DNA of 21,957 nucleotides. Source: a virus. The position numbers and the translations under genes were made by a program. The notes beneath the pieces are model-generated. The model did no database searches. It was not told where the DNA came from and saw only the letters and a list, made by a program, of their open reading frames with translations. Positions 3,338 through 21,957 of this stretch are shown here, piece after piece. The DNA lies in the IMG/VR virus record IMGVR_UViG_3300002231_000542, positions 56,513 to 78,469 of that record; one strand, 5' to 3'. Position 1 is the stretch's first letter. The number at the start of each line of letters is the position of its first letter.

Positions 3338-6105
3338 TATGATATTGTACCTCCTCCATCTCCACCTGTAAATTTAGTCTTAGCTCCTGAATTTGAAGAG
3401 GCTGCTTTTAGTACTTCTTGTATTTGCTTTAACAAGTGATTCTGGTCAATAGATACTTTTACATTACTTAGCTGCTTCTCTATCATCTGTTTATACTCTT
3501 TCCAGACACCTTCTTGCTCTTTAATACGTTGCTTAACGTCAGTTACAGCTATTTTAGAGTCTTTAACTAAATTTAAATTACTTGCATACTCTCGTATTAA
3601 AGCCATACCGGTTCTTATACTCTCGTTTACTTCATCAGAAGCTTCACCAAGACCCTCATACTTTTTTTTCTCATCATCTAAGACAGCTACAGCTCCTGCA
3701 ATATCTTGAGCAGTTAATGCACCTCCCGCACGTTGTTTACGTGATAAATTATCCAAAGCGGTGTCTATATTAGCTATAGAATTATCTATAATTTCTTCTT
3801 TATCAGCCCAGTTGGTTTCCTCATCAGCCAGAAGAGCCCTGTTAGCAGCAATATCAGCCTCTCTGAAACGCTTAGTCAAGTCTCTGGCTGTTTGAAGATT
3901 TTGCTCTTCTAAAGCCAACTCATCTTGTAGTTGTTGCTTTTTAATAGCGTTTTTTTCTTTAGCAAAATCCTCATCTAACTTCAGTATATCCTGTAAATAG
4001 GTTCTAGTTTGTGCTAACCTATCCTCATGAGCTTTATTTAAGTCTTTAGTGTGCTTTTCTTCTTCTTTTAGCTCATTTAATTTCCACTTGTTCTGACTTT
4101 TGGAGTTGGAAGCTTGCGCTTGTTGCTCAACCTTTATAGCTTTCAACTTTTCAGCTAACTTAGCTCGTTGAGCCTGTGCTTCTTTTTTAGTAAGCTTGGT
4201 GTCTTCAGCTAATTTTTTATTAGAAGCTTTCCTAGCTTCCTCAAGAGCCTCTTCATTTGCCTTTGCGTCAGCATCAGCAAGTTTCTTAGCGTTTAATTTA
4301 GCATTAGCTTCGAGAAGATCAGCAGCTTCCTGCTTCAGTTTAAGTCTAATATTAGTTTCCCGTTCTAATCTCTGGTCATACTTCTTAGCTTCTTCTATAA
4401 AGATTTTTGCTTTTATAGCTTCTGTTTTCTTTAAAGCTTCTGCTTCTGTTATATTACCCTGCTCAGTAAGAATTCTTATTTTATTAATATTTTCTTTATG
4501 AGACCTAAGACGCTCATTATAAAGTTTGCGGAAGACCCCTGTGATGTCATTAACTTGTCCCTCGTACTCACTTTTTATATCACGCAGTGCTTTATTAACA
4601 ATAGTTTTAGAATCATTAAAGTATTTTTCTAGTTTATCTTTTTCAGACATCGTTAATTCATTATATTTTTTAGTAGTTTCTTCAAAACGGTCTTGCAATA
4701 ATTGAAACAGTTTCGTGTTACCACCATCTGAAACGGAAATTTGGTCTTGTATTACACGTTTCAAATCACCCAGTAATTGTTGGTTATAATCTTTCGCAGC
4801 TTGTAAATGTTTCTGATTATTAAGATAATCAACAGTTTTTTTATCTTGATGATACTTGTCAATTAATCCAATTAGTGCATGAGAAGAAATTAACTGACTC
4901 TTATCAAGTTCGGCGTTATGCTCCACTTGCTGTTTAAATAATTTATCAAGATATTCAGCTTGGGCTTGAATAGCTTTAGCTTTGTTAAGTTTGCTAAAAC
5001 TATTTGATTTATCAGCTTGAGCACGCACAGCTTTACCCCACCGTCTTAACCAAGCAATGCCTTCTTTTATTGATCTTTGTTGTGCCAGATTTTGGTCTTC
5101 AAAGTAGGTAGTCCCCGCATCTGCGGCTTTACCAAAGTACTCTACTATTCCTGTAACCTGCTTTTTTATAAACGGCAAAAGCTCACTCTTTTTTAGATAC
5201 GAGGCGGCGCTAGCAAAAGCTTCTATAAATGATGTAAACTCATCTACATAACCTTTGTATGCAGCCTTCCCATCAATAACAGAGTTAGTCCATTTAAGTA
5301 GAGTATCTGTAATATCAGACAGTAATTTATTAAATTTAAGATTATTAGTAAAAAGACCTCCCACAGCTTTAGAAAACTCACGTAAAGAAGCTGCAACATT
5401 TTTAGAACTTTTTTCATATCCTTGGAAAGCAGCTTGGGCCTGCCCACCAAATTCTACATCTAATTCTCGTAAGACTTCATTAAAACCATCAGTGGCTATT
5501 TTAGCTTTGTTAAAACTAACACCAACTCTAGTGAGTGTACTTTCAATACCAACGAATGCCTTACCTACCTGAACAGCTGTACCTCTGAGGTGACGAGACC
5601 CCATAGCAGTAGCTAAGTCCAGAACTGCTACTGTAGATTTTTTGAGGGTATCCTGATTCATTCTACCAAAAGTCTGAAGTATTGTCATAACTTCAGTAAT
5701 CTCTTCAACTGTTCTTCCAGTTTGGAATTGAAGTAATAACGCAAATTTCTTATTCTCGTCAAAAGCTTGTTTAGTAAAAGTTCCTGAAGATTTCATAGAT
5801 TGTTCTAGTTTACGGAACTCCTTCTTTGCCTTACTAGCTCCATCAATAAGACCCTTAAACCACTTAATACCTTTTATAACAGCATAGTATCCGACAATAC
5901 CTTTTAAAGTTCTTGTAATATCTTTGATAGACTTAACAGCTGAATTAGAGCCTTTCTTTATAGCGTTACTAGCTCCACTACTACCTTTCTTAGCATTATT
6001 TATAGAATTCTGAGCAGAACTTTTAGTTTCTTCATCTATCCCATTCATAGCTTTCTTAGCATCTGAATAGACATCTTTAAAAGTCTTGCCTGAAGCGTTA
6101 GTCAT
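3337..6105 (-). CDS. Tail tape measure protein (TP901-like)
   Basis: A 922-codon, Lys/Glu/Ala/Gln-rich and strongly coiled-coil protein, the longest alpha-helical product in the tail block. Residues about 60-85 hold a hydrophobic stretch (LKGIVGYYAVIKGIKWFKGL). Residues about 100-260 follow the TP901-type tape measure pattern: TGRTVEEI, DLATAMG, VGKAFVGIESTLTRVGVSF, then FGGQAQAAFQGYEKSS. The role is to set tail length inside the tube and to pass into the cell envelope on infection; at about 0.15 nm per residue this implies a tail near 140 nm. The ATG at 6105 has no Shine-Dalgarno sequence, while a 39-codon frame just upstream has one and reads like a tape measure N-terminus. The real start is therefore probably at 6229, with a frame break near 6132-6135. 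Confidence 0.9.
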   Translation of the reverse strand: MTNASGKTFKDVYSDAKKAMNGIDEETKSSAQNSINNAKKGSSGASNAIKKGSNSAVKSIKDITRTLKGIVGYYAVIKGIKWFKGLIDGASKAKKEFRKLEQSMKSSGTFTKQAFDENKKFALLLQFQTGRTVEEITEVMTILQTFGRMNQDTLKKSTVAVLDLATAMGSRHLRGTAVQVGKAFVGIESTLTRVGVSFNKAKIATDGFNEVLRELDVEFGGQAQAAFQGYEKSSKNVAASLREFSKAVGGLFTNNLKFNKLLSDITDTLLKWTNSVIDGKAAYKGYVDEFTSFIEAFASAASYLKKSELLPFIKKQVTGIVEYFGKAADAGTTYFEDQNLAQQRSIKEGIAWLRRWGKAVRAQADKSNSFSKLNKAKAIQAQAEYLDKLFKQQVEHNAELDKSQLISSHALIGLIDKYHQDKKTVDYLNNQKHLQAAKDYNQQLLGDLKRVIQDQISVSDGGNTKLFQLLQDRFEETTKKYNELTMSEKDKLEKYFNDSKTIVNKALRDIKSEYEGQVNDITGVFRKLYNERLRSHKENINKIRILTEQGNITEAEALKKTEAIKAKIFIEEAKKYDQRLERETNIRLKLKQEAADLLEANAKLNAKKLADADAKANEEALEEARKASNKKLAEDTKLTKKEAQAQRAKLAEKLKAIKVEQQAQASNSKSQNKWKLNELKEEEKHTKDLNKAHEDRLAQTRTYLQDILKLDEDFAKEKNAIKKQQLQDELALEEQNLQTARDLTKRFREADIAANRALLADEETNWADKEEIIDNSIANIDTALDNLSRKQRAGGALTAQDIAGAVAVLDDEKKKYEGLGEASDEVNESIRTGMALIREYASNLNLVKDSKIAVTDVKQRIKEQEGVWKEYKQMIEKQLSNVKVSIDQNHLLKQIQEVLKAASSNSGAKTKFTGGDGGGTIS

Positions 6106-10588: not shown

Positions 10589-11494
10589 CTATGCTTCTGT
10601 TGTTGTCCTCATCTGAACTGCATGATCAGCTCTAAGTACGGCAGTACCATAGATAGTTCTGAAAGTCAGGATGTCAGCGAAGTTGTTGTGGTCTCTACTA
10701 GCTTCGGCTGTGATTCCAACCTGAGAAGCGAATGCAAAGGCTTCTTTGTGGAACATACCACAAGCTTTGTGAGGATAAACAACTGGTGACGCTGATGATA
10801 CAGATGATACGATTGCCACATCCGCTAGGTTATTTGAGACGTAGACAGGCATACCGTAAATCTTACCTAAAGAACCCGTAGGAACTGGTAAGTTAGCTGA
10901 TGTTACTTTGTCAGCGTCTATGAACTTATCAATCTTCAGCATAGCTTCTTCCTGCTGAGGACTAATGACGATGTATCTATCAGTCATAGGCACATTAGCT
11001 TCATTCAGAATCCTACGAGCAGCTAAAAGTGTGTTGTCTGTGATGTCTACATACGCACCTGATGTTACTGTACCGACGTTCTGTGTTACTGTAGTGTCGT
11101 TAAGTAACAGTGCAAGGTCTACGTCGATCTGGTTAGCTAGAGCGACACCCTGACTAACCGCATACTCAGACACTAGGCTGATGTCAGTTTGAATCTCGGC
11201 TAAGTCCTCGATATTGATGGCGGTGTACTTATCCTTATCAATAACGATTGTAGCCACTGTCTCAGTCTGTGTAGTAAGTACGATTGGAGTACCATCGACT
11301 TTTGTCTTAACGGTTCCAGCACCAAAGATTGGGATACGAATTGTATCACCTCGACCTTTGATTTCTTTCTCGTACCTTCGGTCTACTAAGTTACCGAAGT
11401 GTAGATTTGTGTTTCTTGCGTGTTGAACTAATGTACTCCATATTTCAGGAACAAAAGCATCAACTGTGGTTTTGGTAATATTACCTGTTGCCAT
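10589..11494 (-). CDS. Major capsid protein (HK97 fold)
   Basis: 301 codons. The sequence has the layout of the P22/N4-like HK97-fold coat group: an N-terminal arm (FVPEIWSTLVQHARNTNLHFGNLVDRRYE), the E-loop region (GDTIRIPIFGAGTVKTKVDG), a spine helix (LVSEYAVSQGVALANQIDVDLALLL), and a P-domain strand and helix (DRYIVISPQQEEAMLKIDKFIDADK), closing with the beta element GKIYGMPVYVSNNL and FRTIYGTAVLRADHAVQMRT. The scaffold gene lies directly upstream, and an AAGGAG site sits about eight bases before the ATG, right after the scaffold stop. It is followed by two strong hairpins, as expected for the most abundant virion protein. Confidence 0.9.
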   Translation of the reverse strand: MATGNITKTTVDAFVPEIWSTLVQHARNTNLHFGNLVDRRYEKEIKGRGDTIRIPIFGAGTVKTKVDGTPIVLTTQTETVATIVIDKDKYTAINIEDLAEIQTDISLVSEYAVSQGVALANQIDVDLALLLNDTTVTQNVGTVTSGAYVDITDNTLLAARRILNEANVPMTDRYIVISPQQEEAMLKIDKFIDADKVTSANLPVPTGSLGKIYGMPVYVSNNLADVAIVSSVSSASPVVYPHKACGMFHKEAFAFASQVGITAEASRDHNNFADILTFRTIYGTAVLRADHAVQMRTTTEA

Positions 11495-12400: not shown

Positions 12401-13921
12401 TTAAACCTCCTCATTAGTTTCACTACTTGTATCTGGTTCTGGAGTCGTAGCACTATCTAAACTAGCATTAGTACCTATAAACGTAGAACCGTCAATTGGT
12501 TTTTCATCTGTTTGAACTTCATTTACAACTTCTTCTGAGGCTTCTATCTCAGACTCTATTATACGTTTAATATTATTATCAATCTCTGGTAATAGTAAAT
12601 TAGACATCTTTCTGTAGTAATGTTTCCTAAATGTATCTGAAGGAACTTGAATAGCTATTGTATTATAAGCTTGCTCAAGTACTGCACCAACATCTACTAA
12701 CCCAAACTGGTCTGGGTATTCAATAGTAACTTCTGTTTTAATATTATCAACACTGACTCCATTCCACAATAAAACTAACTCATGAATAAAGTACTCTGCA
12801 TTAGTTAAGTTAATTGCTACTTTCTGAAGCATAGCTTCAGTTTTCTCAAATTCTATTTGAAGAGAAGCCCCACTTTTAACAGCGTTATGGTTCTCTATAC
12901 CTGTATGGTTTAATTTTGCTAATCTATAAATTTCTTCTACTGTTTGTTTAATACGTTTTTCGTAAGAATCAGTAGTTGATGATGGAGGAGCTATGAATGC
13001 TGGAGCATGTTTACTTTCGGGATCAAAAGTAACAGCTAAATCAGTATCTAATCTAATCTCTCCTGGATCACCTGGAAATGTTAATATAGCAAATGTCTGT
13101 TGTCTAAGTAAATCATCTAATTCAGAAAGGAGGTTAAATAATCTTTTACTTAAGGATGAAACGTCCTTAATGCCTGAAATACCTAAAATTGTATGCCCAT
13201 CAGCTTTCTTGTAATGTACAGGAACCACGGGTACTTTACCTAAGCCATGAGAACCACTATCAATAACAGTTAAGTCACCTTCATCCTCTTCAATGAGTGA
13301 CCACTCATCTATTGTCCATATTTTGTACCTAGTACGTTCTTCATGCTCTTCAAAAACATCTTCAGTGTTAGTTAGAGCTGTTTCTTTAATTTTTATCCAT
13401 TGTAATATACCATACTCGTCAATAGCCCAATCTAATACATTTTTAGGGTGTACCACGTAAGCATAAGCTTTCTTATTAGCTAGACGCTCTTCTAATTTTG
13501 TAGTAACTTCTACATTAGGTGTGTCAACTACAACAAAACAGTGTCCTATAACAATAGCTGTAATAAAAGCTTGACTCATAAGCACATCTATAGAAGCATC
13601 GCCTCTAAGATTTGTTGACCTGTGGAAACTGTCTAGTATATCATTTATTGTTCTTCTATCTGGTGATTTTTTGTAGATATGCCCCACGTAAGTATCAACT
13701 ATAGCTGCTGTATAGTTAGGGTAGTACGACAGCTTTTTTCTGGATATGTATTTAGCTTCATCTTCTTTCTCATATTTGTCTAAATACGTACCATCTTCAA
13801 AACCACCAGTGCCATGATAACTATCATGAAGCATTGTCCATGTATCTATATTAGCTGTGTACTCAGCGTGTTCCTGAGCAATAGTACCTAACTCTTTTGC
13901 CCTGTCTAACGATATAGCCAT
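12401..13921 (-). CDS. Portal protein (DUF4055-like)
   Basis: 506 codons, with an AGGAG site about seven bases before the ATG. The N-terminal signature (YHGTGGFEDGTYL, then YYPNYTAAIVDTYVGHIYKKSP) is typical of a portal group that forms the dodecameric ring at the capsid vertex. A central beta region (YAYVVHPKNVLDWAIDEYGILQWIKI) and a long helix (KRIKQTVEEIYRLAKL) followed by GIENHNAVKSGASLQIEFEKTEAML match the wing, stem and crown order. The Asp/Glu/Thr-rich C-terminus is probably disordered. It is the first large gene after a perfect-consensus promoter at 13978-14006, about 56 bases upstream of its start. The neighbours, terminase on one side and scaffold on the other, agree. Confidence 0.9.
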   Translation of the reverse strand: MAISLDRAKELGTIAQEHAEYTANIDTWTMLHDSYHGTGGFEDGTYLDKYEKEDEAKYISRKKLSYYPNYTAAIVDTYVGHIYKKSPDRRTINDILDSFHRSTNLRGDASIDVLMSQAFITAIVIGHCFVVVDTPNVEVTTKLEERLANKKAYAYVVHPKNVLDWAIDEYGILQWIKIKETALTNTEDVFEEHEERTRYKIWTIDEWSLIEEDEGDLTVIDSGSHGLGKVPVVPVHYKKADGHTILGISGIKDVSSLSKRLFNLLSELDDLLRQQTFAILTFPGDPGEIRLDTDLAVTFDPESKHAPAFIAPPSSTTDSYEKRIKQTVEEIYRLAKLNHTGIENHNAVKSGASLQIEFEKTEAMLQKVAINLTNAEYFIHELVLLWNGVSVDNIKTEVTIEYPDQFGLVDVGAVLEQAYNTIAIQVPSDTFRKHYYRKMSNLLLPEIDNNIKRIIESEIEASEEVVNEVQTDEKPIDGSTFIGTNASLDSATTPEPDTSSETNEEV

Positions 13922-14021: not shown

Positions 14022-14195
14022 TTACTTTATTTTATTCTTACTTTTCTTCTTTCTGGGAGTGAAGTATTCACAAATATCCATAACTTCCTGATTAATAAGT
14101 ACGCAGAATAGTGGCACAGAGCCATCCTTACGCTCTAGGTAAGAACCATGACCACAATCTAAACAGCAAATAATTTTCTTGTTTTCTTCTACCAA
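14022..14195 (-). CDS. Cys-rich microprotein after the large terminase (57 aa, TTG start)
   Basis: TTG at 14195 is preceded by GGAGGT, about six bases away, which lies in the last codons of the terminase gene; this near-perfect site decides the start. The frame overlaps the terminase stop by a few bases. The protein has Cys at residues 10, 11, 14, 31 and 42, with a CLDCGH knuckle, suggesting a zinc-ribbon or rubredoxin-like fold, followed by a basic tail (PRKKKSKNKIK). It may bind nucleic acid or act beside the terminase. No family is recognised. It is too short to appear in many gene predictions. Confidence 0.65.
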   Translation of the reverse strand: MVEENKKIICCLDCGHGSYLERKDGSVPLFCVLINQEVMDICEYFTPRKKKSKNKIK

Positions 14196-15577
14196 AATCT
14201 ACCTCCTGATGATGGTGTAAATCCAGTTTCTCGTGAATAAATAGCATAACGTATAGCATCCATAGCATGATCATCCATTTTCAGCGGCTCTTCTTTAACA
14301 TTTTTAGTAGTAGATTTCTCGTACCTGTACGACTCAAATTCACGGATAACATTAACACATTTATCCATAACGTATAAATGAGGTTTATGGTTACGTACTA
14401 CAAGTTTTTGAGCTACTGCTTTGATACCTTCTGATATAGAATAGTTATGTTTACGGGCTTTTTTAATTTTAAAGCCGTTTTGATTAAATAAATGTATTGC
14501 TTCAGGTTTATGGTCGGCAAAGCCACTAAAAATGCCATATTTAGCCCTCAGATCGTTTAATACGCGCAGTAAATCAGTATTTGTATGCTTACGCTTGTAA
14601 AACTCATCAAACACGTAATAACGCCCATCCTCGTCAACGCCTATGCACAAAATAACTGAAGGATTCTCAAAACCAAAGTCTATAGAAAAGAATTTCTCAT
14701 TAAATTCTTCTGGACGTATGTTATTAGGTAATTTCTTAATAACATGTGTCTCAGGAGTGAACTCTTTGTAAACTCTACCTTCGTACACATGAAATGAAGC
14801 TAAGTACTCTTGCGCATAGACTTCTGCCGATAGTGTGGCTTTAGCTTCAGCTAAATCTCCTGGAGAAAGGTGAGGGTTAGATGAAGAGGGTGCCTGAAAA
14901 CTAGCCCAATCAACATGCTTCTCTGGTGCTCTTTTACTGAGCATAAACAGTTTATAAATCCAGTTTCTACCTTCTGGAGTAGTTAAAAAGAGAGCATCAC
15001 CTTCTTTATCAGTTAAAGTAGGTCTAAGATACTTTTGCCATATAGCTTCTTTGACTTTAGCAGCCTCATCAAATACTAAAAAATCAACACCTTCACCAAG
15101 AAGTGAATCTGGGTTCTCTGCTGATTTACCGATTATCTGAGTACCATTTTTAAGTATGATATGACGTTCTTTAGTAGAACATTTAGCCACATCTTCACCT
15201 CTAAGAATAATCTTAAAGATTTTAACTACTTCCCTAAAAATCTTATCTGTAAGATCATACGTAGGGGCTACTATCCATATAATTTGGTTAGGTTCACAAG
15301 CTTTATAAGAGATTTCATAAGAAGCGAGTAATGATTTACCTGTTCGTCTTCCACACACAACTACTCTAAATCTTTTTTTACTAGAATGAATAGCTACCTG
15401 CACTGGGTGAGGTATGTATTTATCTTCCTCACGAGCTTTCGCGTTTAATCTACGAAACCATGAATCCTTACCAAACTTATATTCCATCCCCTTAAGTTCT
15501 GCAAGATGTTGTTGCAGTTCTTCTATGGAGAGGTCTTCAATGTTCCCAAAAGTACTTAAAGTTTCTGTTAAAGACAT
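14189..15577 (-). CDS. terL: Large terminase subunit (ATPase and nuclease)
   Basis: 462 codons. The ATPase half has Walker A as CGRRTGKS (75-82), an adenine or Q-type WIVAPTYDL segment (101-109), Walker B as FLVFDE (166-171), and coupling motif TTPEG (199-203). The RNase H-like nuclease half has its acidic residues in SIDFGFENPS (Asp 300), ADHKPE (Asp 355) and DDHAMDAIRYA (435-445). This is the motor that pumps DNA into the prohead through the portal and cuts concatemers. AAGGA lies about eight bases before the ATG. The start overlaps the end of the small gene upstream by ten bases, and the portal follows after one microprotein and a promoter. Confidence 0.97.
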   Translation of the reverse strand: MSLTETLSTFGNIEDLSIEELQQHLAELKGMEYKFGKDSWFRRLNAKAREEDKYIPHPVQVAIHSSKKRFRVVVCGRRTGKSLLASYEISYKACEPNQIIWIVAPTYDLTDKIFREVVKIFKIILRGEDVAKCSTKERHIILKNGTQIIGKSAENPDSLLGEGVDFLVFDEAAKVKEAIWQKYLRPTLTDKEGDALFLTTPEGRNWIYKLFMLSKRAPEKHVDWASFQAPSSSNPHLSPGDLAEAKATLSAEVYAQEYLASFHVYEGRVYKEFTPETHVIKKLPNNIRPEEFNEKFFSIDFGFENPSVILCIGVDEDGRYYVFDEFYKRKHTNTDLLRVLNDLRAKYGIFSGFADHKPEAIHLFNQNGFKIKKARKHNYSISEGIKAVAQKLVVRNHKPHLYVMDKCVNVIREFESYRYEKSTTKNVKEEPLKMDDHAMDAIRYAIYSRETGFTPSSGGRFW

Positions 15578-15777
15578 AGCAAATCCTTATACGTCGCCAC
15601 AAACTCATTTATCTTGTTTACGTAATGATTATAACGATTACCTTCTTCAAGAACTAGACGACCTTCACCAGCACTTATCATAAAGTATACTAGGTACTGA
15701 AAGTCTTCATTCTCGTCATTGAGACCATACAGAGTGCCATGTTTGAAAGTTACTACAACATTACCTGTCTTATTCAA
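15568..15777 (-). CDS. Small unknown protein between terminase subunits (69 aa, TTG start)
   Basis: The TTG at 15777 overlaps the end of the small terminase gene by eight bases, and a purine-rich AAGGTGGT lies a few bases upstream. The sequence opens with two short strands (GNVVVTFKHGTLYGL) followed by an acidic turn and a helix-rich end (YVNKINEFVATYKDLL). There is no ATG in a suitable place. The coupled overlaps on both sides support it as a real gene of the packaging operon, but I do not recognise a family. Confidence 0.55.
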   Translation of the reverse strand: MNKTGNVVVTFKHGTLYGLNDENEDFQYLVYFMISAGEGRLVLEEGNRYNHYVNKINEFVATYKDLLCL

Positions 15778-16411
15778 TATCTACCACCTTAGCTTGTTTT
15801 TGTTTTAACTGGTCATTGACTAATCTAGTCATGATAGTTAATTGTTCTTTAAATTCGTCCTGCTCTCTGTGTTGAGTGTCTATTGCTGAAGTTATAGTAG
15901 TTCTAATATTTTCAGTAGCCTCACCTTTGAGTAACTTCTCAGTTTTGACTAAAGTAGCTAAGATTTCAGTAGCTTCCTTTAAATTCCTAATAGGCAGGCT
16001 CCGTTCATTATTAACCCACTGCATTAAAGAGTCTTTTAGTACCCTTTTCAAGCCTTTAAGTAAGAAAGCTGATTCCCGTTCTTCCCCAGATAACATTTCT
16101 ATAACTTTAGCGTACTCCTCTGCTTTCTTTTCTCTATTTTTAATAGATAACTCAGCTTGCTTCATTACAGCGTTATCACTAATATCCTTTTTAAGTTTAT
16201 CCCAGCGATGATAGTGGCATTTACATTGAATCTCACCACGTTTCCATTTACCCAAAGTCAAGGCAATAGGCATTCCTTGTATCTTAGCAATATTATCTAC
16301 TGAAATACCATCTTGGTACCAGTACTCAAAAGCTCGTTTATGTAAAGCTGTGTCGAGTTTATTTCCTGAATTTTTTAATTTTCTTTTTCTTACTTTCTTT
16401 TTAGTAGACAT
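15770..16411 (-). CDS. terS: Small terminase subunit
   Basis: 213 codons and first in the leftward operon. After a basic N-terminus (STKKKVRKRKLKNSGNK) comes a helix-turn-helix region at about 20-60, with FEYWYQDGISVDNIAKIQGM as the helices and LGKWKRGEIQCKCHYHRWDKL as the recognition part, resembling the TerS N-domain that senses the packaging site. The rest is helical (KEATEILATLVKTEKLLKGE) and ends in a charged oligomerisation helix. The predicted -10 box of its promoter ends only eight bases before the ATG, so its transcript would be close to leaderless; there is no real Shine-Dalgarno sequence. Confidence 0.8.
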   Translation of the reverse strand: MSTKKKVRKRKLKNSGNKLDTALHKRAFEYWYQDGISVDNIAKIQGMPIALTLGKWKRGEIQCKCHYHRWDKLKKDISDNAVMKQAELSIKNREKKAEEYAKVIEMLSGEERESAFLLKGLKRVLKDSLMQWVNNERSLPIRNLKEATEILATLVKTEKLLKGEATENIRTTITSAIDTQHREQDEFKEQLTIMTRLVNDQLKQKQAKVVDIE

Positions 16412-16626: not shown

Positions 16627-16932
16627 ATGATAACATCAGGAGAAGTCGCTGGGTTAGCACGAACACCCTCACCAATACCAAAGAAGTATTGGAAGATGAT
16701 GAATTTATTAAATAGGGTCAAGACTGACACAGTTAACGCAGGTTACGACCAAATGAAACGAATTTCAGTTAAACTGAATTCATCTGAGGACAAAGCCGCT
16801 TTCTATTGGAAGCCCAGTGCAGAGGAGGAAAGTCAGTTACTGTTTAATACTTCTATCAAAATTTGTGAAGCGATTGTCTTCACATGGGTTAAATCATTTA
16901 GAATGTTAAGAGATGATTTTAACTTAGTATAG
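16627..16932 (+). CDS. First gene of the rightward array, unknown function (101 aa)
   Basis: AAAAGGAG lies about seven bases before the ATG, and the gene follows the rightward promoter directly. The N-terminus has a short hydrophobic-basic region (SGEVAGLARTPSPIPKKYWKMMNLLNRVK), the middle has a WKPSAEEESQ segment, and the C-terminus is a Phe/Trp/Val-rich helix (FNTSIKICEAIVFTWVKSFRML). No signal peptide or clear transmembrane segment is seen. It shows no convincing similarity to the downstream paralogues. Being the first and best-placed gene behind the promoter, it is probably made early in infection; its role is unknown. Confidence 0.7.
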   Translation: MITSGEVAGLARTPSPIPKKYWKMMNLLNRVKTDTVNAGYDQMKRISVKLNSSEDKAAFYWKPSAEEESQLLFNTSIKICEAIVFTWVKSFRMLRDDFNLV

Positions 16933-16939
16933 TAGAAGT

Positions 16940-16959
16940 CGTAATTACTACTAATTACG
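16940..16959 (+). repeat. Stem-loop between the first two rightward genes
   Basis: CGTAATTA and TAATTACG are perfect 8-bp arms with a 4-base loop, starting eight bases past the stop at 16932. The following bases are AGGGTTAAAT, so there is no T-run for a standard terminator. Confidence 0.45.
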
Positions 16960-16995
16960 AGGGTTAAATATAGCGGGATATTGAACGGTAACTAG

Positions 16996-17060
16996 TACTA
17001 ACATGTACATGGCAACGAGAAGATGCCCATATGGGCATCCTCGTAAGCCTCATGTTAGTA
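16996..17060 (+). ncRNA. Nested stem-loop structure, candidate small RNA or leader element
   Basis: Outer arms TACTAACATG (16996-17005) and CATGTTAGTA (17051-17060) are a perfect 10-bp match. Inside, CGAG (17016-17019) pairs with CTCG (17040-17043) across an AA bulge onto GATGCCCATATGGGCATC (17022-17039), a perfect 18-bp palindrome. Together they form a closed two-level hairpin ending 22 bases before the next gene's ATG. It has no open frame of its own. A regulatory leader, small RNA, recombination site or DNA cruciform are all possible. Confidence 0.5.
17035..17052 (+). repeat. 18-bp repeat, copy 1 (inverted match to 21931-21948)
   Basis: GCATCCTCGTAAGCCTCA here is the exact reverse complement of 21931-21948. 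The copy overlaps the 3' half of the nested hairpin. The pair encloses the whole small-gene array. Confidence 0.8.
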
Positions 17061-17082
17061 AAACGTAGAGGAGAGTAATGAA

Positions 17083-17298
17083 ATGATAATACCAGATGAC
17101 ACATGGGATGACGTAGCTGATGAAGTAGCTGATAATTTAGGTTGTAGTATAAGTGATGTGATAACCATAGATGCTTCTCTTGAGATGATATTATTTATTC
17201 TAGGTTTAGAAGTTGAATCAAAGTATGAATGCAGTGAAAGAGCTTTACTGGATTTGGGTTTCCACCTAAATACTAACATATTCACTGTAACAAGCTAA
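17083..17298 (+). CDS. Small array protein, paralogue family (71 aa)
   Basis: Preceded by GAGGAGAG. A tiny ATG AAA TGA frame begins five bases before the real ATG and overlaps it, so ribosomes could start at either. The protein is acidic at the N-terminus (PDDTWDDVADEVADNLG). Its C-terminal half, LEMILFILGLEVES through RALLDLGFHLNTNIFTV, aligns by eye with the family pattern seen best in the genes at 19807 and 21021 (FRLLTHVLDLDHLK and IEIDANFDLFTV). No known domain is recognised. It probably folds as a small helical bundle. Confidence in the gene is higher than in its family membership. Confidence 0.7.
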   Translation: MIIPDDTWDDVADEVADNLGCSISDVITIDASLEMILFILGLEVESKYECSERALLDLGFHLNTNIFTVTS

Positions 17299-17313
17299 TA
17301 AGAAGGGAAAATT

Positions 17314-17796
17314 ATGGGAAAATTATCAAATGTACTTGTGAAATGTAGAAAATTAACTCAAGATGAGTTAAATCAAGAAATAGTTATAAATAAAATCAAT
17401 GAAATACAAAAATTAGTTGAAAAAGCTTCAAAAGATACTGGAGAAAAATGGGTTTATCCAGTAGAACTATTAAAAACAGTTCCAGAGTTCCTGGTATCAC
17501 CACTGAAGCACGCAGAGTGTAATCCATTTAGTTTACTAGTTGGAATAGGTATTCCACAAGGCTTAAAAGAGCGATTACCTAATAAACAAAGAAAACATGA
17601 CTATTTTGTCTACTATAATTGGAAAGTAGCCATTCACAAGGCTCTGATTAAAGTGGGTGGTGTAAGAATAGGTAAAATGAAGGAACATGTTCCTTCATTT
17701 AAGCACTACTATTTCCAAGTTATGAAAATCTATGAGAAAGATGGCATTTACGCTAGTGCTTTCAAAGAATTACCAACAAGAATATGGAGGTTTTAA
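17314..17796 (+). CDS. Array protein of unknown function (160 aa)
   Basis: AAGGGAAAA precedes the ATG. This is the longest gene of the array and does not show the paralogue pattern. The first third is helical and charged (LTQDELNQEIVINKINEIQK); the middle has a hydrophobic turn (NPFSLLVGIGIPQGLKERLP), and the end is basic and aromatic (HDYFVYYNWKVAIHKALIKV, then FKHYYFQVMKIYEKDGIY). Such composition could suit nucleic acid or protein binding, but I recognise no family. The next gene starts immediately after its stop, using a GGAGG site in this gene's last codons, so the two are translated together. Confidence 0.7.
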   Translation: MGKLSNVLVKCRKLTQDELNQEIVINKINEIQKLVEKASKDTGEKWVYPVELLKTVPEFLVSPLKHAECNPFSLLVGIGIPQGLKERLPNKQRKHDYFVYYNWKVAIHKALIKVGGVRIGKMKEHVPSFKHYYFQVMKIYEKDGIYASAFKELPTRIWRF

Positions 17797-18045
17797 ATGA
17801 CAATATCTGCTTTTTGGCGGGTAACATTAGAACTACATAAGATGCATGTAGCAGAAGACAGAAATGTAGGTGTATCAGGCTACGGGACTAATGTGGCTGC
17901 GTTTAGTAATAGGTTGCTTGTGGAAATACTACCCTTGCTAAATTTAAATGAACTCACCCGTTCATGGGCGGTCGAAGCTCAGCTATTAGCTGAATTAAAT
18001 TTAGACAAAGAAGTATATAGAACCCATTTCTTTGAAATATACTAA
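17797..18045 (+). CDS. Small array protein, paralogue family (82 aa)
   Basis: GGAGG in the last codons of the previous gene and an ATG directly after its stop show coupled translation. It opens MTISAFWRVTLELHK, close to the internal MTISEFNLHICGHIR of the 21021 protein. Residues about 35-55 (AFSNRLLVEILPLLNLNELT) match the helix FAFRLLTHVLDLDHLK, and the C-terminus (LLAELNLDKEVYRTHFFEIY) matches LLEDIEIDANFDLFTVY in spacing and polarity. The similarity is by eye and moderate. No domain of known function is seen. Confidence 0.7.
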   Translation: MTISAFWRVTLELHKMHVAEDRNVGVSGYGTNVAAFSNRLLVEILPLLNLNELTRSWAVEAQLLAELNLDKEVYRTHFFEIY

Positions 18046-18056
18046 GGAGAATTAAT

Positions 18057-18329
18057 ATGGTAGTATTAGGAAGAATACATAATGATAATATTAATGAGCT
18101 TACTGCGCATTATCGTACTCATGATAATGAGTTTTACGAGGGCATAGATTTACCAGAAGTTGTCTTTGTAAGTGTATGGATAATCGCATCTATGTTTAAT
18201 GTATGTAGTGATAAGTACATAATAACTAAATATAGAGATACAGCTATTATGTTGGGTATAGAGGAAGAGTACTTACATCAACCAGACCACCCGATTTATG
18301 GTGATACTGGGTATATAAGTTCATTTTAG
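18057..18329 (+). CDS. Small array protein, possible distant paralogue (90 aa)
   Basis: AAGGAG lies about seven bases before the ATG, and the start is 11 bases after the previous stop. The protein is acidic and has a hydrophobic core helix (PEVVFVSVWIIASMFNV) followed by a charged stretch and LGIEEEYLHQ. The order helix, linker, acidic end fits the array's family, but identical residues are few, so membership is uncertain. The hydrophobic helix is too polar at its ends to call a membrane anchor with confidence. Confidence 0.65.
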   Translation: MVVLGRIHNDNINELTAHYRTHDNEFYEGIDLPEVVFVSVWIIASMFNVCSDKYIITKYRDTAIMLGIEEEYLHQPDHPIYGDTGYISSF

Positions 18330-18374
18330 GATAATACTACAACGCTAGAAGAGGCTTACAGCCTATTACTTGAC

Positions 18375-18392
18375 CTATGTGTGCTCACATAG
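18375..18392 (+). repeat. Stem-loop in the gap after 18329
   Basis: CTATGTG and CACATAG pair perfectly around TGCT. Flanking AGAGGCTTAC (about 18350-18359) and GTAAGTCTCC (18402-18411) can pair at 8 of 10 positions to give an outer stem. GAGGCTTAC is also the core of the 18-bp repeat at 21931 and, inverted, at 17043. Confidence 0.4.
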
Positions 18393-18556
18393 CAGAAGCT
18401 AGTAAGTCTCCTTGGATTACTAGTAATAACTGGGTGATGCCTTTTCACAACAATTTACCGTTGCTATGGTCAGAATATAGAAGACGAAGAGGAGTAGATA
18501 TGTTGGATGATATGACAGTATGTAGAATAATGGAGGTAATAGCTGGTGAGCTTTAG
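18377..18556 (+). CDS. Possible small gene or gene remnant (59 aa)
   Basis: An open frame starts at ATG 18377 with no Shine-Dalgarno sequence and ends just after the start of the next gene. It reads MCAHIAEASKSPWITSNNW, then a basic patch SEYRRRRGVD, and ends IMEVIAGEL. An internal ATG at 18500 does have a good AGGAG site and would give an 18-residue leader peptide coupled to the gene at 18546. In another frame directly upstream, TTTLEEAYSLLLDLC reads on from the previous stop and could have joined this sequence before a frame break. A decayed gene, a leader peptide, or a genuine short protein are all possible. Confidence 0.35.
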   Translation: MCAHIAEASKSPWITSNNWVMPFHNNLPLLWSEYRRRRGVDMLDDMTVCRIMEVIAGEL

Positions 18557-18758
18557 TGGAAAGGATTATTTGGACACATCACATAGTGAGTATCTATTCA
18601 TGCTATTTTCTTATGCCACTATGGCTACTTTATTAAGTATAGAGGTACCTCCAAGATGGCATACAATGAATTATGATATTAAGTATCTAAAAGATAGATT
18701 TCCTGATAGTACGTTTAACGTGCTCAGGGACTTACTTAATTTGGAAGAGGAGCGCTAA
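18546..18758 (+). CDS. Small array protein, possible paralogue (70 aa, GTG start)
   Basis: GTG at 18546 is chosen because GGAGGT lies eight bases upstream. The frame overlaps the end of the 59-codon frame. The helix (EYLFMLFSYATMATLLSIEV) followed by a polar segment with an aromatic (PPRWHTMNYDIKYL) and an acidic C-terminus (LRDLLNLEEER) follow the array's general architecture. No known domain is seen. It ends two bases before the next ATG, so the pair is coupled. Confidence 0.65.
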   Translation: MSFSGKDYLDTSHSEYLFMLFSYATMATLLSIEVPPRWHTMNYDIKYLKDRFPDSTFNVLRDLLNLEEER

Positions 18759-18759
18759 A

Positions 18760-19068
18760 ATGACTTATGAAGCTATTAGTGAGAGAATGGTAAGTTCGGT
18801 AGATGATGAGATAGGTCATGAGTTACACGATGAGTTATATTATAAGTCACGTGATAAGTCAAAATCTTCATATAGGGGTACTGGTTGTGTTTGGTTTAGT
18901 AGAGCTACACTATATCATCTACTTAATATAAAACCGTTTATGGAGGAAGTACAAAGGTACTCACCAGTGTATACCTCTAAGTACATTACTGTAGGTGAAG
19001 ATTTTGAGGATGATTTTTACGATTTTGTTTTACTAAAAGGAGTTAAAGATGGGTATAATTACATATGA
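18760..19068 (+). CDS. Small array protein, paralogue family (102 aa)
   Basis: A GAGGAG site sits in the last codons of the upstream gene. The pattern is DDEIGHELHDEL near the N-terminus, comparable with FHILHQIYQEL at 19807; then a helix (WFSRATLYHLLNIKPFMEEV), and finally YITVGEDFEDDFYDFVLLKG, comparable with IKIDDNFNLFSV. The product is acidic and has no Cys-based motif or signal. Its last 20 bases overlap the start of the next gene. Confidence 0.7.
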   Translation: MTYEAISERMVSSVDDEIGHELHDELYYKSRDKSKSSYRGTGCVWFSRATLYHLLNIKPFMEEVQRYSPVYTSKYITVGEDFEDDFYDFVLLKGVKDGYNYI

Positions 19069-19354
19069 TAATATAATTGAAATTAGAAAGACAGTTAGTC
19101 ATACACTCATAGAGAGTATTGGTTATGATAGCTTCCATTATGATTGGGACAATAGCAGTACTGCTTCTTCTATAGTGTTCTCTGCTTTTAACATGTTGTT
19201 GAGGATGACTAATATAGAAGTAAAAGATAGAGTTATAGGAAACCAAATTAAGTACACACAATATTCAAATGGGACAACAATAGCGACTCCTTTCTTAGTC
19301 GACACTAAGCATCCCTCGAATTTTGGTTGTGATATTAGGCACACATTCATCTAG
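19049..19354 (+). CDS. Small array protein, paralogue family (101 aa)
   Basis: AAAAGGAG lies about seven bases before the ATG, inside the previous gene's end. Residues about 10-22 (IIEIRKTVSHTLIES) and 42-60 (IVFSAFNMLLRMTNIEVKDR) have the order seen in the 21021 protein (HICGHIRKELF, then IGFAFRLLTHVLDLDHLK). The C-terminal part (NQIKYTQYSNGTTIATPF) is longer and differs, without the acidic NF.LF.V end. No recognised domain. Confidence 0.65.
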   Translation: MGIITYDNIIEIRKTVSHTLIESIGYDSFHYDWDNSSTASSIVFSAFNMLLRMTNIEVKDRVIGNQIKYTQYSNGTTIATPFLVDTKHPSNFGCDIRHTFI

Positions 19355-19371
19355 AATAAGGAGATAAGTAA

Positions 19372-19641
19372 ATGGATATTGATGATATAAAATTTGAAGT
19401 TCTGGATAGTATTAGCTTAGAGCTTCTTAAGAAGCAGTACATAGATAGTATGTACTCAGGGGCTGATGAGTTATTGTACGGTTTTCTGCTTTTAGTGAAG
19501 TGTTTAGGACTTAATAACTCTGAAGAAATGTATTCATTTGATGATTTTGATGATTTTAATGAAGATGTATTACGCATAATGTATGTATTAGATAAAAAAC
19601 AATCAGGAATTTACTATTTCCCAGGGTATAGAGAGGAATAA
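19372..19641 (+). CDS. Small acidic array protein, paralogue family (89 aa)
   Basis: AAGGAG lies upstream, with the ATG 18 bases after the previous stop. It is very acidic: an early helix (DSISLELLKKQYIDSMYSG), then ELLYGFLLLVKCLGLNNSEE as the family's LL..L.L helix, then FDDFDDFNEDVLRIMYV in place of the DDNF.LF.V end. It could be a DNA-mimic-like acidic protein by composition, but no family assignment is possible from this. The C-terminus (GIYYFPGYREE) is unique. It is followed by a decayed copy of a paralogue. Confidence 0.7.
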   Translation: MDIDDIKFEVLDSISLELLKKQYIDSMYSGADELLYGFLLLVKCLGLNNSEEMYSFDDFDDFNEDVLRIMYVLDKKQSGIYYFPGYREE

Positions 19642-19667
19642 AGACTACCAGAACAATTGTACGATAA

Positions 19668-19763
19668 TATACCGGAAAGAGTGAACAAACCCATCTACTA
19701 TTAACAAAGGCTAATATAAAGACAGATGATAATTTTGACTTATTTCCAATTGACTTTGATTAA
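19668..19763 (+). pseudogene. C-terminal remnant of an array paralogue
   Basis: A frame with no start codon reads KANIKTDDNFDLFPIDFD before its stop. About 35 bases here, from 19713, match the gene at 19807 around 20059 almost base for base. The purine-rich leader that follows (AAAGTATAAGAAACAAAGGAGAAAC) also matches the sequence after that gene. This shows a recent duplication of roughly 350 bp, whose older copy has lost its N-terminal part. Confidence 0.7.
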
Positions 19764-19773
19764 GTAAAAGTAT

Positions 19774-19800
19774 AAGAAACAAAGGAGAAACAAAGGAGAA
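19774..19800 (+). repeat. Duplicated ribosome-binding leader (two ACAAAGGAGA units)
   Basis: AGAAACAAAGGAGA followed by AACAAAGGAGA gives two consecutive Shine-Dalgarno sequences before the gene at 19807. A near copy, AGAAACAAAGGAGAAACAAAG, lies at 20128-20147 before the alaS relic, so the whole leader was duplicated together with the gene end. Confidence 0.65.
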
Positions 19801-19806
19801 ATTGAA

Positions 19807-21000
<1,194 letters not shown>

Positions 21001-21020
21001 AATTCTAAAAGGAGAAAGAA

Positions 21021-21356
21021 ATGCTAGAAGAAAACAGCCCATTTATAACTCATCCTAATGAGAGATTAACAACCGTAAACTCTAAATATGGGGACATGAC
21101 TATATCAGAATTTAACCTTCATATATGCGGTCATATCAGGAAAGAACTCTTTCCTGATACCTCAGTAATTACTACGTTCATAAATGAAAATACCATAGGT
21201 TTCGCTTTCAGGTTACTAACACATGTTTTAGATTTAGATCATTTGAAAACAGATGGTTGGAGTAAGCTTCTAGAAGATATAGAGATAGATGCTAATTTTG
21301 ATTTATTTACAGTCTATCCAAGCTTTACCGCCCATCTATCCGATCCCACCACTTAA
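21021..21356 (+). CDS. Small array protein, paralogue family (111 aa)
   Basis: AAAAGGAGAAAG precedes the ATG and lies on the last codons of the alaS relic. Aligned blocks with the 19807 protein are given there; here they fall at residues about 28-42 (TISEFNLHICGHIRKEL), 61-76 (FAFRLLTHVLDLDHLK) and 87-98 (IEIDANFDLFTV). It is the last gene of the rightward array in this window and stands directly before the repeat-rich region. Its C-terminal tail (SFTAHLSDPTT) is unshared. No domain of known function is recognised. Confidence 0.8.
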   Translation: MLEENSPFITHPNERLTTVNSKYGDMTISEFNLHICGHIRKELFPDTSVITTFINENTIGFAFRLLTHVLDLDHLKTDGWSKLLEDIEIDANFDLFTVYPSFTAHLSDPTT

Positions 21357-21393
21357 ATCAGACCCTAACCATTACTTTTAGGCGGTATACATT

Positions 21394-21423
21394 AGACTCT
21401 AGACTCTAGACTCTAGACTCTAG
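21394..21423. repeat. Four tandem copies of a 7-bp unit
   Basis: AGACTCT repeats exactly four times (21394-21421), followed by AG. Internal TCTAGA steps give it short dyad character. It begins the gene-free region after 21356. Confidence 0.9.
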
Positions 21424-21427
21424 GTAC

Positions 21428-21499
21428 TTAATCCTCATATCCCTTAATCCTCATATCCCTTAATCCTCATATCCCTTAATCCTCATATCCCTTAATCCC
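21428..21499. repeat. Tandem 16-bp repeats, 4.5 copies, iteron-like
   Basis: TTAATCCTCATATCCC occurs exactly four times from 21428 to 21491, then a partial unit (TTAATCCC). Identical head-to-tail 16-bp units in a non-coding AT-rich region are what replication or partition iterons look like; no binding protein is identified in the window. Confidence 0.9.
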
Positions 21500-21501
21500 T
21501 T

Positions 21502-21530
21502 TGACCTAGCCGCGTAGGCGCTATAGGTCA
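21502..21530. repeat. GC-containing hairpin after the 16-bp repeats
   Basis: TGACCTA (21502-21508) and TAGGTCA (21524-21530) pair, with an inner GCC/GGC (21509-21511, 21517-21519). The loop holds GCGTA. No T-run follows, so a termination role is not supported. Confidence 0.55.
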
Positions 21531-21563
21531 TTGGAAAATGGGGATTTTTGTGTAAGGGGGACA

Positions 21564-21595
21564 GTGTCCTATATTATATCCATAATATAGGACAC
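21564..21595. repeat. Perfect inverted repeat with 14-bp arms
   Basis: GTGTCCTATATTAT and ATAATATAGGACAC are exact reverse complements around a 4-base loop. GGGGG upstream and CCCC downstream can extend the stem. There is no T-run. It would form a very stable hairpin or cruciform, or a two-fold protein site. Confidence 0.85.
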
Positions 21596-21607
21596 ACCCC
21601 ACCCCCC

Positions 21608-21621
21608 GCGTCATATGACGC
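21608..21621. repeat. 14-bp perfect palindrome
   Basis: GCGTCATATGACGC is identical on both strands and lies 12 bases past the large inverted repeat. It is a plausible dimer-binding site. Confidence 0.75.
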
Positions 21622-21642
21622 ACTCGTATAAATGTAGAGCCT

Positions 21643-21658
21643 ATGCAATAACTGTGCC
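21643..21658. repeat. Isolated 16-bp half-site of the dyad repeat
   Basis: ATGCAATAACTGTGCC is the exact reverse complement of 21780-21795 and 21853-21868 in the 73-bp repeats, about 100 bp before the array. Confidence 0.8.
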
Positions 21659-21667
21659 AACATTAAC

Positions 21668-21681
21668 GTCAATATATTGAC
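21668..21681. repeat. 14-bp perfect palindrome
   Basis: GTCAATATATTGAC is identical on both strands, ten bases after the isolated half-site. Confidence 0.75.
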
Positions 21682-21750
21682 ACCTATAAATAACACGACG
21701 GTATAACATGGTAGTAATAACACGAGGTACTTACCTCATATAGTATGACT

Positions 21751-21918
21751 TACATGCAAGTACTATGCCAAACGTAGTTGGCACAGTTATTGCATAGCAA
21801 ACTACCATGGTAAAGTAAAGTATTACATGCAAGTACTGTGCCAAACGTAGTAGGCACAGTTATTGCATAGCAAACTACCATGGTAAAGTAAAGTATTACA
21901 TGCAAGTACTGTGCCAAA
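21751..21918. repeat. 73-bp tandem repeat with internal dyad, 2.3 copies
   Basis: Units 21751-21823 and 21824-21896 differ at only a few positions; a third starts at 21897 and breaks off after about 22 bases. Each full unit holds a dyad: a left half-site ATGCAAGTACTGTGCC (or CTATGCC in unit 1) and a right GGCACAGTTATTGCAT about ten bases away, then the palindrome TACCATGGTA. With the isolated copy at 21643 there are six half-sites in 273 bp. This is an operator or origin-type array. Confidence 0.9.
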
Positions 21919-21930
21919 ACAAACATGCCC

Positions 21931-21948
21931 TGAGGCTTACGAGGATGC
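21931..21948 (+). repeat. 18-bp repeat, copy 2 (inverted match to 17035-17052)
   Basis: TGAGGCTTACGAGGATGC is the exact reverse complement of 17035-17052. It lies 13 bases after the partial third 73-bp unit, close to the window edge, so more of the element may lie outside. Confidence 0.8.
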
Positions 21949-21957
21949 GATTCTGTG

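Follow-up and report, generated by a model that had tools for sequence, protein, structure and literature searches.

We found that the six repeats at the right end of this phage DNA are, judged by sequence, near-perfect copies of the DNA site of sigma-54 (RpoN), an alternative subunit of bacterial RNA polymerase, and that arrays of the same predicted site are common in other viral contigs, where they are intergenic, run in either direction, and, in many phage lineages, are found upstream of the terminase genes. We consider it on balance probable that such a dense array, in a control region upstream of the packaging and structural genes, is a set of recognition sites for the sigma-54 of the host; that sigma-54 binds the array sites as such is highly probable. 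Most likely, the arrays would provide landing sites where host sigma-54, or the holoenzyme that contains it, settles on the control region of the phage. The window that we analyzed (21,957 nucleotides) makes up the right-hand end of a virus record of 78,469 bases (IMG/VR record IMGVR_UViG_3300002231_000542, here G000).

The preliminary description had placed six copies of a 16-mer at 21643, 21754, 21780, 21827, 21853, and 21900, and all six are found there, those at 21780 and 21853 on the minus strand and the others on the plus strand, none departing from ATGCAANTANTGTGCC by more than one base. When up to three mismatches are allowed, the 22-kb window contains 12 matches to ATGCAANTANTGTGCC versus 1.7 expected, six of them inside 273 bp, and extending the search to the rest of the 78.5-kb record gave no further match at one mismatch or fewer. 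Read on the opposite strand, each 16-mer becomes TTGGCACA-N4-TTGCA, with GG-N10-GC, and the unit takes the form TTGGCACAGTTATTGCA or TTGGCACAGTACTTGCA, which corresponds to the sigma-54 -24/-12 element YTGGCACR-N4-TTGCW. Four sites point leftward on the minus strand, namely site 1 (21644 to 21660; TTGGCACAGTTATTGCA, score 20.4), site 2 (21755 to 21771; TTGGCATAGTACTTGCA, 18.5), site 4 (21828 to 21844; TTGGCACAGTACTTGCA, 19.3), and site 6 (21901 to 21917; TTGGCACAGTACTTGCA, 19.3). Two point rightward on the plus strand: site 3 (21778 to 21794; TTGGCACAGTTATTGCA, 20.4), back-to-back with site 2, and site 5 (21851 to 21867; TAGGCACAGTTATTGCA, 16.2), the weakest, which is divergent with site 4. 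The two dyads reported earlier (21754/21780 and 21827/21853, with 10 bases separating the arms) are real, each being a divergent pair. All six sites have GG-N10-GC within TGGCAY...TTGCW, site 5 with an A in place of the first T, before GG.

The scores were obtained with a matrix derived from E. coli sigma-54 ChIP-seq data (42 intergenic sites; PMC4591121, Table 1). The six best scores of the window are exactly those of the six copies (16.2 to 20.4; next best, 11.5), and they are as strong as the E. coli sites scored with their own matrix (median, 16.4; maximum, 21.7). A first-order Markov simulation gave 0.05 sites scoring 16.2 or more per 22 kb. In vitro, the RpoN holoenzyme selects TGGCACnnTTnTTGC without an activator (PMC8743547). 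We thus reject the view that the 16-mers are half-sites of a dimeric protein, since each is a complete, asymmetric, and directional -24/-12 site. The broader proposal of a multisite tract for a sequence-specific DNA-binding protein, inside a non-coding control region, holds. So does the observation that the window encodes no matching protein, for which the host's own sigma-54 would be the simplest source.

The array lies in a non-coding hub (21357 to 21957) that extends to the contig end, and the only listed open reading frame (ORF) of at least 60 aa in this hub is one that runs open at the contig edge; the contig end, 40 bases past the last site, cuts the array off. A 73-bp direct repeat is present, as had been noted. 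Its first copy (21750 to 21822) holds sites 2 and 3 plus a ACTACCATGGTA palindrome, its second copy (21823 to 21895), 97% identical to the first, holds sites 4 and 5 plus the palindrome, and a 23-bp remnant follows (21896 to 21918). The 73-bp period, however, is a local duplication, since related arrays are spaced otherwise, with preferred spacings of 25 to 29 bp for tandem, 17 to 21 bp for convergent, and 21 to 26 bp for divergent sites. These preferences are clear, but periodicity past the first mode is weak (p about 0.05), and we do not claim helical phasing of the sites. The palindromic ACTACCATGGTA element, an inverted repeat between sites, occurs at 21801 to 21812 and 21874 to 21885, with a diverged inverse at 21704 to 21715, and is a possible site for an activator or another regulator; no known activator motif was identified among the palindromes of the hub. 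Just left of the array, we observed tandem repeats of the 7-mer AGACTCT (21396 to 21423) and of the 16-mer CTTAATCCTCATATCC (four copies, 21427 to 21490), then a hairpin at 21564 to 21595 with a perfect 14-bp inverted repeat and a 4-bp loop (GTGTCCTATATTAT...ATAATATAGGACAC), followed by the short palindromes CGTCATATGACG, GTCAATATATTGAC, and AGGTACTTACCT.

G000 is a tailed phage, as it encodes a terminase large subunit (TerL; 14189 to 15577, minus strand; Pfam Terminase_6N/Terminase_3C, PHROG 2), a portal (12401 to 13921, minus strand), and a major head protein (10589 to 11494, minus strand). A candidate terminase small subunit (15770 to 16411, minus strand) is proposed from its position, without a family match. 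From the translated frames, we recognized by eye a DNA polymerase, a primase, a ligase, a ribonucleotide reductase, and an NAD-salvage pair in the rest of the record, which is incomplete because its left end cuts an open frame. The genes are mostly leftward, and small rightward frames (16627 to 21356) reach up to the array, which is located about 6.2 kb upstream of TerL. We found no co-oriented gene shortly downstream of the sites of the window: the four leftward sites face only plus-strand ORFs, the first 5 kb downstream of them containing no start of a leftward gene, and the rightward side runs into the contig end. In IMG/VR, the array-side ORF and the small-terminase candidate had no relatives and TerL had only distant ones, which left no close relative of the phage in which to trace the conservation of its own array.

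Several other features of the record deserve mention. At 20150 to 20876 (plus strand), two broken frames, mutually out of frame, match alanyl-tRNA synthetase (PF01411; E values of 3e-52 and 1e-13) as well as one phage family (phrog_28604), and the stretch reads as a decayed alanyl-tRNA synthetase gene in a phage. In the left part of G000, a phage protein (L059:3947-4876) has about 20 six-residue units of the IGSNSE type and resembles hexapeptide repeats, with an antisense frame that is open too. The NAD-salvage pair (L059:10308-12621) consists of adjacent nicotinamide phosphoribosyltransferase-like and NMN-adenylyltransferase/NUDIX-like genes, again by eye from translations.

We then looked for the element in other viral contigs, the phage loci being metagenomic assemblies. 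Scans with the exact 16-mer gave mostly single chance matches, plus some clusters that kept the core but had another spacer, and these led us to search for arrays. When 2.9 million viral contigs were first scanned for TGGCAY-N5-TTGCW sites in tandem pairs, at least 120 stretches were returned, from which at least 88 to 89 non-redundant arrays with three or more sites were derived; a divergent-pair pattern in a second, non-overlapping sample returned at least 54 arrays with three or more sites. Together, the two scans yielded at least 143 non-redundant arrays of three or more sites. A control pattern with one extra spacer base gave 47 stretches in the whole collection, compared to at least 120 for the true spacing, and the control stretches inspected were largely tandem repeats of near-identical units, which we took to be coding repeats. 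The spacing preference is also seen in 118 viral loci, where TGGCA-Nn-TTGC occurs 565 times at n = 6, compared to 6 to 27 times at each of the other values of n between 2 and 15; as the loci were picked for two tandem sites, about 240 of the 565 matches are guaranteed by the selection and the remainder are not. Among the matches listed, the largest arrays are those of L131 (26 sites in 0.8 kb of a 147.5-kb contig) and L023, whose 15 sites all point in one direction, which argues against obligatory dyads. Consensus sites are confined almost wholly to one region each in 14 array-bearing records, in which a reversed control pattern gave none.

Thirteen cultured phage records, YuA included, contain no exact site and no such array, and BLAST of three arrays against cultured phages gave no useful match. 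A three-site pattern searched in 257 Gb of bacterial and archaeal contigs matched 13 stretches, six of which consist of identical tandem units; the matches in Actinoplanes, Planococcus, Paenibacillus, Nostoc, Bacillus, and one Bacteroidales bin were discarded as ordinary repeats of this kind. Two other loci look mobile: L229 is a phage in a Sphingobacteriales bin, with its array just upstream of small-terminase-like and terminase-like genes, and L238, in a Methylococcaceae bin, is an integrated element with an integrase and a primase. In L238, seven sigma-54-type sites about 40 bp apart (5216 to 5484) adjoin an HU/IHF-like gene.

The arrays are intergenic, and in loci that include TerL the main array lies upstream of it in 20 of 20 TerL groups (defined at 45% identity) among the matches listed and in 29/29 loci of the second sample. 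The distance to TerL is typically 0.8 to 2.5 kb, and one locus has a second cluster downstream. Orientation is mixed, with 222 sites facing away from TerL versus 115 facing it, and lineages differ completely in this respect. The largest TerL group shares a candidate small-terminase gene, conserved and about 130 codons long, whose start is located 230 to 750 bp from the array; on the other side, small genes often lead away from the array as a set. Apart from TerL, no protein family near the arrays recurs across TerL groups.

Evaluation of positions that the searches had left free supports sigma-54 as the reader of the motif. A purine follows TGGCAY in 97% of 466 sites and a pyrimidine precedes TGG in 83% (94% and 73%, respectively, in the second sample), and the motif is unchanged in contigs with a GC content from 31 to 64%. 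Among six related arrays, divergence amounts to 1.3% in the core, 22% in the spacer, and 16% in the flanks, the motif-derived labels favoring the core somewhat. The preliminary description had held a freely varying repeat count in close relatives against its own reading; the count does vary, as sites are gained and lost, but the site cores stay conserved, so that copies turn over while site quality is kept. By these sequence criteria, the motif is that of sigma-54, and selection maintains it between relatives. A sigma-54 gene (PF04552) was found in none of 28 array-bearing records, and the protein would therefore be the host's. In the same 28 records, the sigma-54 activator domain (PF00158) had a single match, a fragment at G000:26086-26196, which we rejected as an activator since it sits in a clamp-loader-like AAA+ ATPase.

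Sites for other host factors were also evaluated. Within 500 bp of the arrays, the density of perfect DnaA boxes (TTATCCACA) is 68 times that elsewhere in the same contigs (37 versus 4), with scrambled controls flat, and 12 times in the second sample, where numbers are small (10 versus 6). The boxes form runs of 3 to 6 in a few lineages (L032:10190-10275 and L143:395-530, for instance, and also L147, L150, L116, L154, and L015), which suggests an origin or a DnaA decoy beside these arrays. Between the DnaA boxes of L143 are two copies of TGTTCCACATGGAACC (at approximately 409 to 424 and 469 to 484), which we take to be one base off the parS sequence known in Pseudomonas. Near arrays, the enrichment of IHF consensus sites is 2.2- to 3.7-fold, and the density of sigma-70-like promoters at the arrays is about 4-fold higher. 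No enrichment was seen near arrays for CRP, PhoB, PurR, ArgR, and MetJ sites. An enrichment of Fur boxes (14- to 16-fold in the first sample) was 1.4-fold in the second and is not claimed, and that of NtrC-like sites is confounded by their overlap with the sigma-54-type sites themselves. Fur-box-like palindromes are located near the arrays at L142:536-560 and L094:1669-1745 and in L017, L019, L022, and L027. The hub of the window contains none of the host-factor sites tested, including DnaA boxes of the consensus used.

Alternatively, the arrays could be banks of working sigma-54 promoters, opened by a nearby activator of the host or an unseen one of the phage, perhaps at the ACTACCATGGTA palindromes, so that late or early genes are transcribed in the manner of phage YuA. 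This reading, which we regard as possible though rather unlikely, stays strong because the development of YuA depends on host sigma-54 (PMC5053324) and because three -24/-12 promoters are mapped in its structural region. It also accords with the position of the arrays between modules at the head of the terminase operon, where the sigma-70-like promoters are dense, and with lineages L121, L149, and L057, whose arrays point wholly towards TerL. Yet orientation is inconsistent among lineages, the largest having 132 sites away from TerL and 39 towards it, start sites at intervals of 25 to 29 bp have no obvious purpose, and the leftward sites of the window face nothing but antisense DNA for 5 kb. 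Neither is there a sigma-54 activator in the 28 phage records beyond the clamp-loader fragment, and where YuA has single late promoters ahead of structural genes, the window has an array of mixed orientation 6.2 kb from TerL.

The constant location upstream of the terminase genes (TerS/TerL) in both samples would be expected equally of a packaging site. Such a site would be a cosB- or pac-like tract to which the terminase small subunit of the phage binds, loading terminase beside its genes. Lambda cosB is similar, with several short repeats and an IHF site upstream of the small-terminase gene, and the IHF enrichment near arrays goes in the same direction. We nevertheless judge a terminase-specific site improbable because one motif spans 20 TerL groups with unrelated neighbors and GC contents of 0.31 to 0.64, whereas independent terminase specificities should differ, and because this motif equals the consensus of a host factor even at unsearched positions; the 6.2 kb between the array of the window and TerL also speaks against it. 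The reading initially proposed, an origin or partition site with iterons for a phage-encoded initiator or ParB-like protein, draws on the presence of repeats in a non-coding region and on the DnaA boxes that accompany some lineages' arrays, as an origin would show. However, iterons normally differ between replicons, while the array motif is constant across phages, at any relative orientation and with variable spacing; no initiator-like or ParB candidate family is shared near the arrays; and the hub of the window is devoid of the DnaA box. The expected change in GC skew is there in a 1-kb profile, with sign flips near 16.5 kb and again in the last 1.5 kb, but these follow gene strand, coinciding with the gene-strand switch and with the end of the strand-biased genes, respectively. 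An origin as such is thus unsupported, and we hold this explanation to be very improbable.

We favor the view that the arrays act as platforms or decoys for host sigma-54. The sigma-54 holoenzyme forms a stable closed complex on such sites and remains silent without an ATP-driven activator, and the array would therefore collect silent polymerase. Sigma-54 or its holoenzyme would occupy the sites as inactive closed complexes and, less certainly, multicopy phage genomes would concentrate or titrate host sigma-54 on phage DNA instead of driving one gene. An E. coli cell contains about a hundred sigma-54 molecules, and several near-consensus sites per genome, multiplied by many genomes per cell, could outnumber them. 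The array might then be a sponge that works against the host regulon, a block or clamp where phage modules meet, or the promoter bank discussed above. We lean towards a platform or decoy because of the free orientation, the tight packing, and the 5 kb of antisense DNA downstream of the leftward sites of the window; provided that sigma-54 binds, the chances of this role and of a conventional promoter would be about even.

More tentatively, and at somewhat less than even chances, we propose that many tailed phages carry a DNA sponge for host sigma-54, some lineages with DnaA boxes too. After replication, hundreds of near-consensus sites would hold the sigma-54 polymerase in inactive closed complexes, and the host sigma-54 regulon would be shut off, polymerase would be held ready at the early-late boundary of the phage, or both. 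Spacings of 25 to 29 bp and convergent pairs at 17 to 21 bp are too tight for neighboring holoenzymes, which argues against simultaneous occupancy. The 13 array-free cultured relatives also count against our main reading, and the single promoters of YuA favor a promoter function. Altogether, the arrays suggest that phages gather, exploit, or soak up host sigma-54.

We found no account of sigma-54 site arrays in phages in the open-access literature, subscription papers being mostly outside the scope of the search. Single sigma-54 promoters in a phage, YuA, are already known and are the only described relative that we found; a 2016 paper presents the use of sigma-54 by phages as rare, with YuA as the precedent. 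The present analysis adds arrays of near-consensus sigma-54 sites that lie upstream of the terminase genes of at least 20 terminase lineages, together with comparable arrays in contigs from Sphingobacteriales and Methylococcaceae genome bins. Should sigma-54 bind these arrays, the regulation of nitrogen, motility, and envelope stress would be a target or an input for many uncultivated phages, and an array could be used as a sequence marker to predict an RpoN-positive host and to locate the control region of a phage. They would also offer a directly testable case of viral DNA-based titration of a host transcription factor.

Comparison with known systems places the arrays close to several of them. 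YuA is likewise a tailed phage whose promoters need host sigma-54, and its TerL shares about 59% identity with that of one array phage (L045); the YuA promoters, in contrast, are three separate and degenerate elements inside the structural region, and its genome has no array and no exact TGGCAYRNNNNTTGCW site. With bacterial -24/-12 promoters, the sites share TGGCAYR-N4-TTGCW, GG-N10-GC, the preceding pyrimidine, and scores like those of E. coli sites, but the phage arrays comprise 3 to 26 copies that are 17 to 50 bp apart and run both ways, and a suitably positioned gene downstream is often missing. The cosB and pac arrays of phages also have several short repeats upstream of terminase genes, whereas the motif described here is common to unrelated terminase lineages and matches a host factor. 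The datA locus titrates DnaA, and datA-like decoys and chromosomal non-promoter sigma-54 sites resemble the arrays as sites that perhaps act by occupancy or titration. Chromosomal non-promoter sigma-54 sites have been discussed as decoys (PMC4591121), and the phage sites differ from them in being phage-borne and arranged as arrays, with a putative role in titration.
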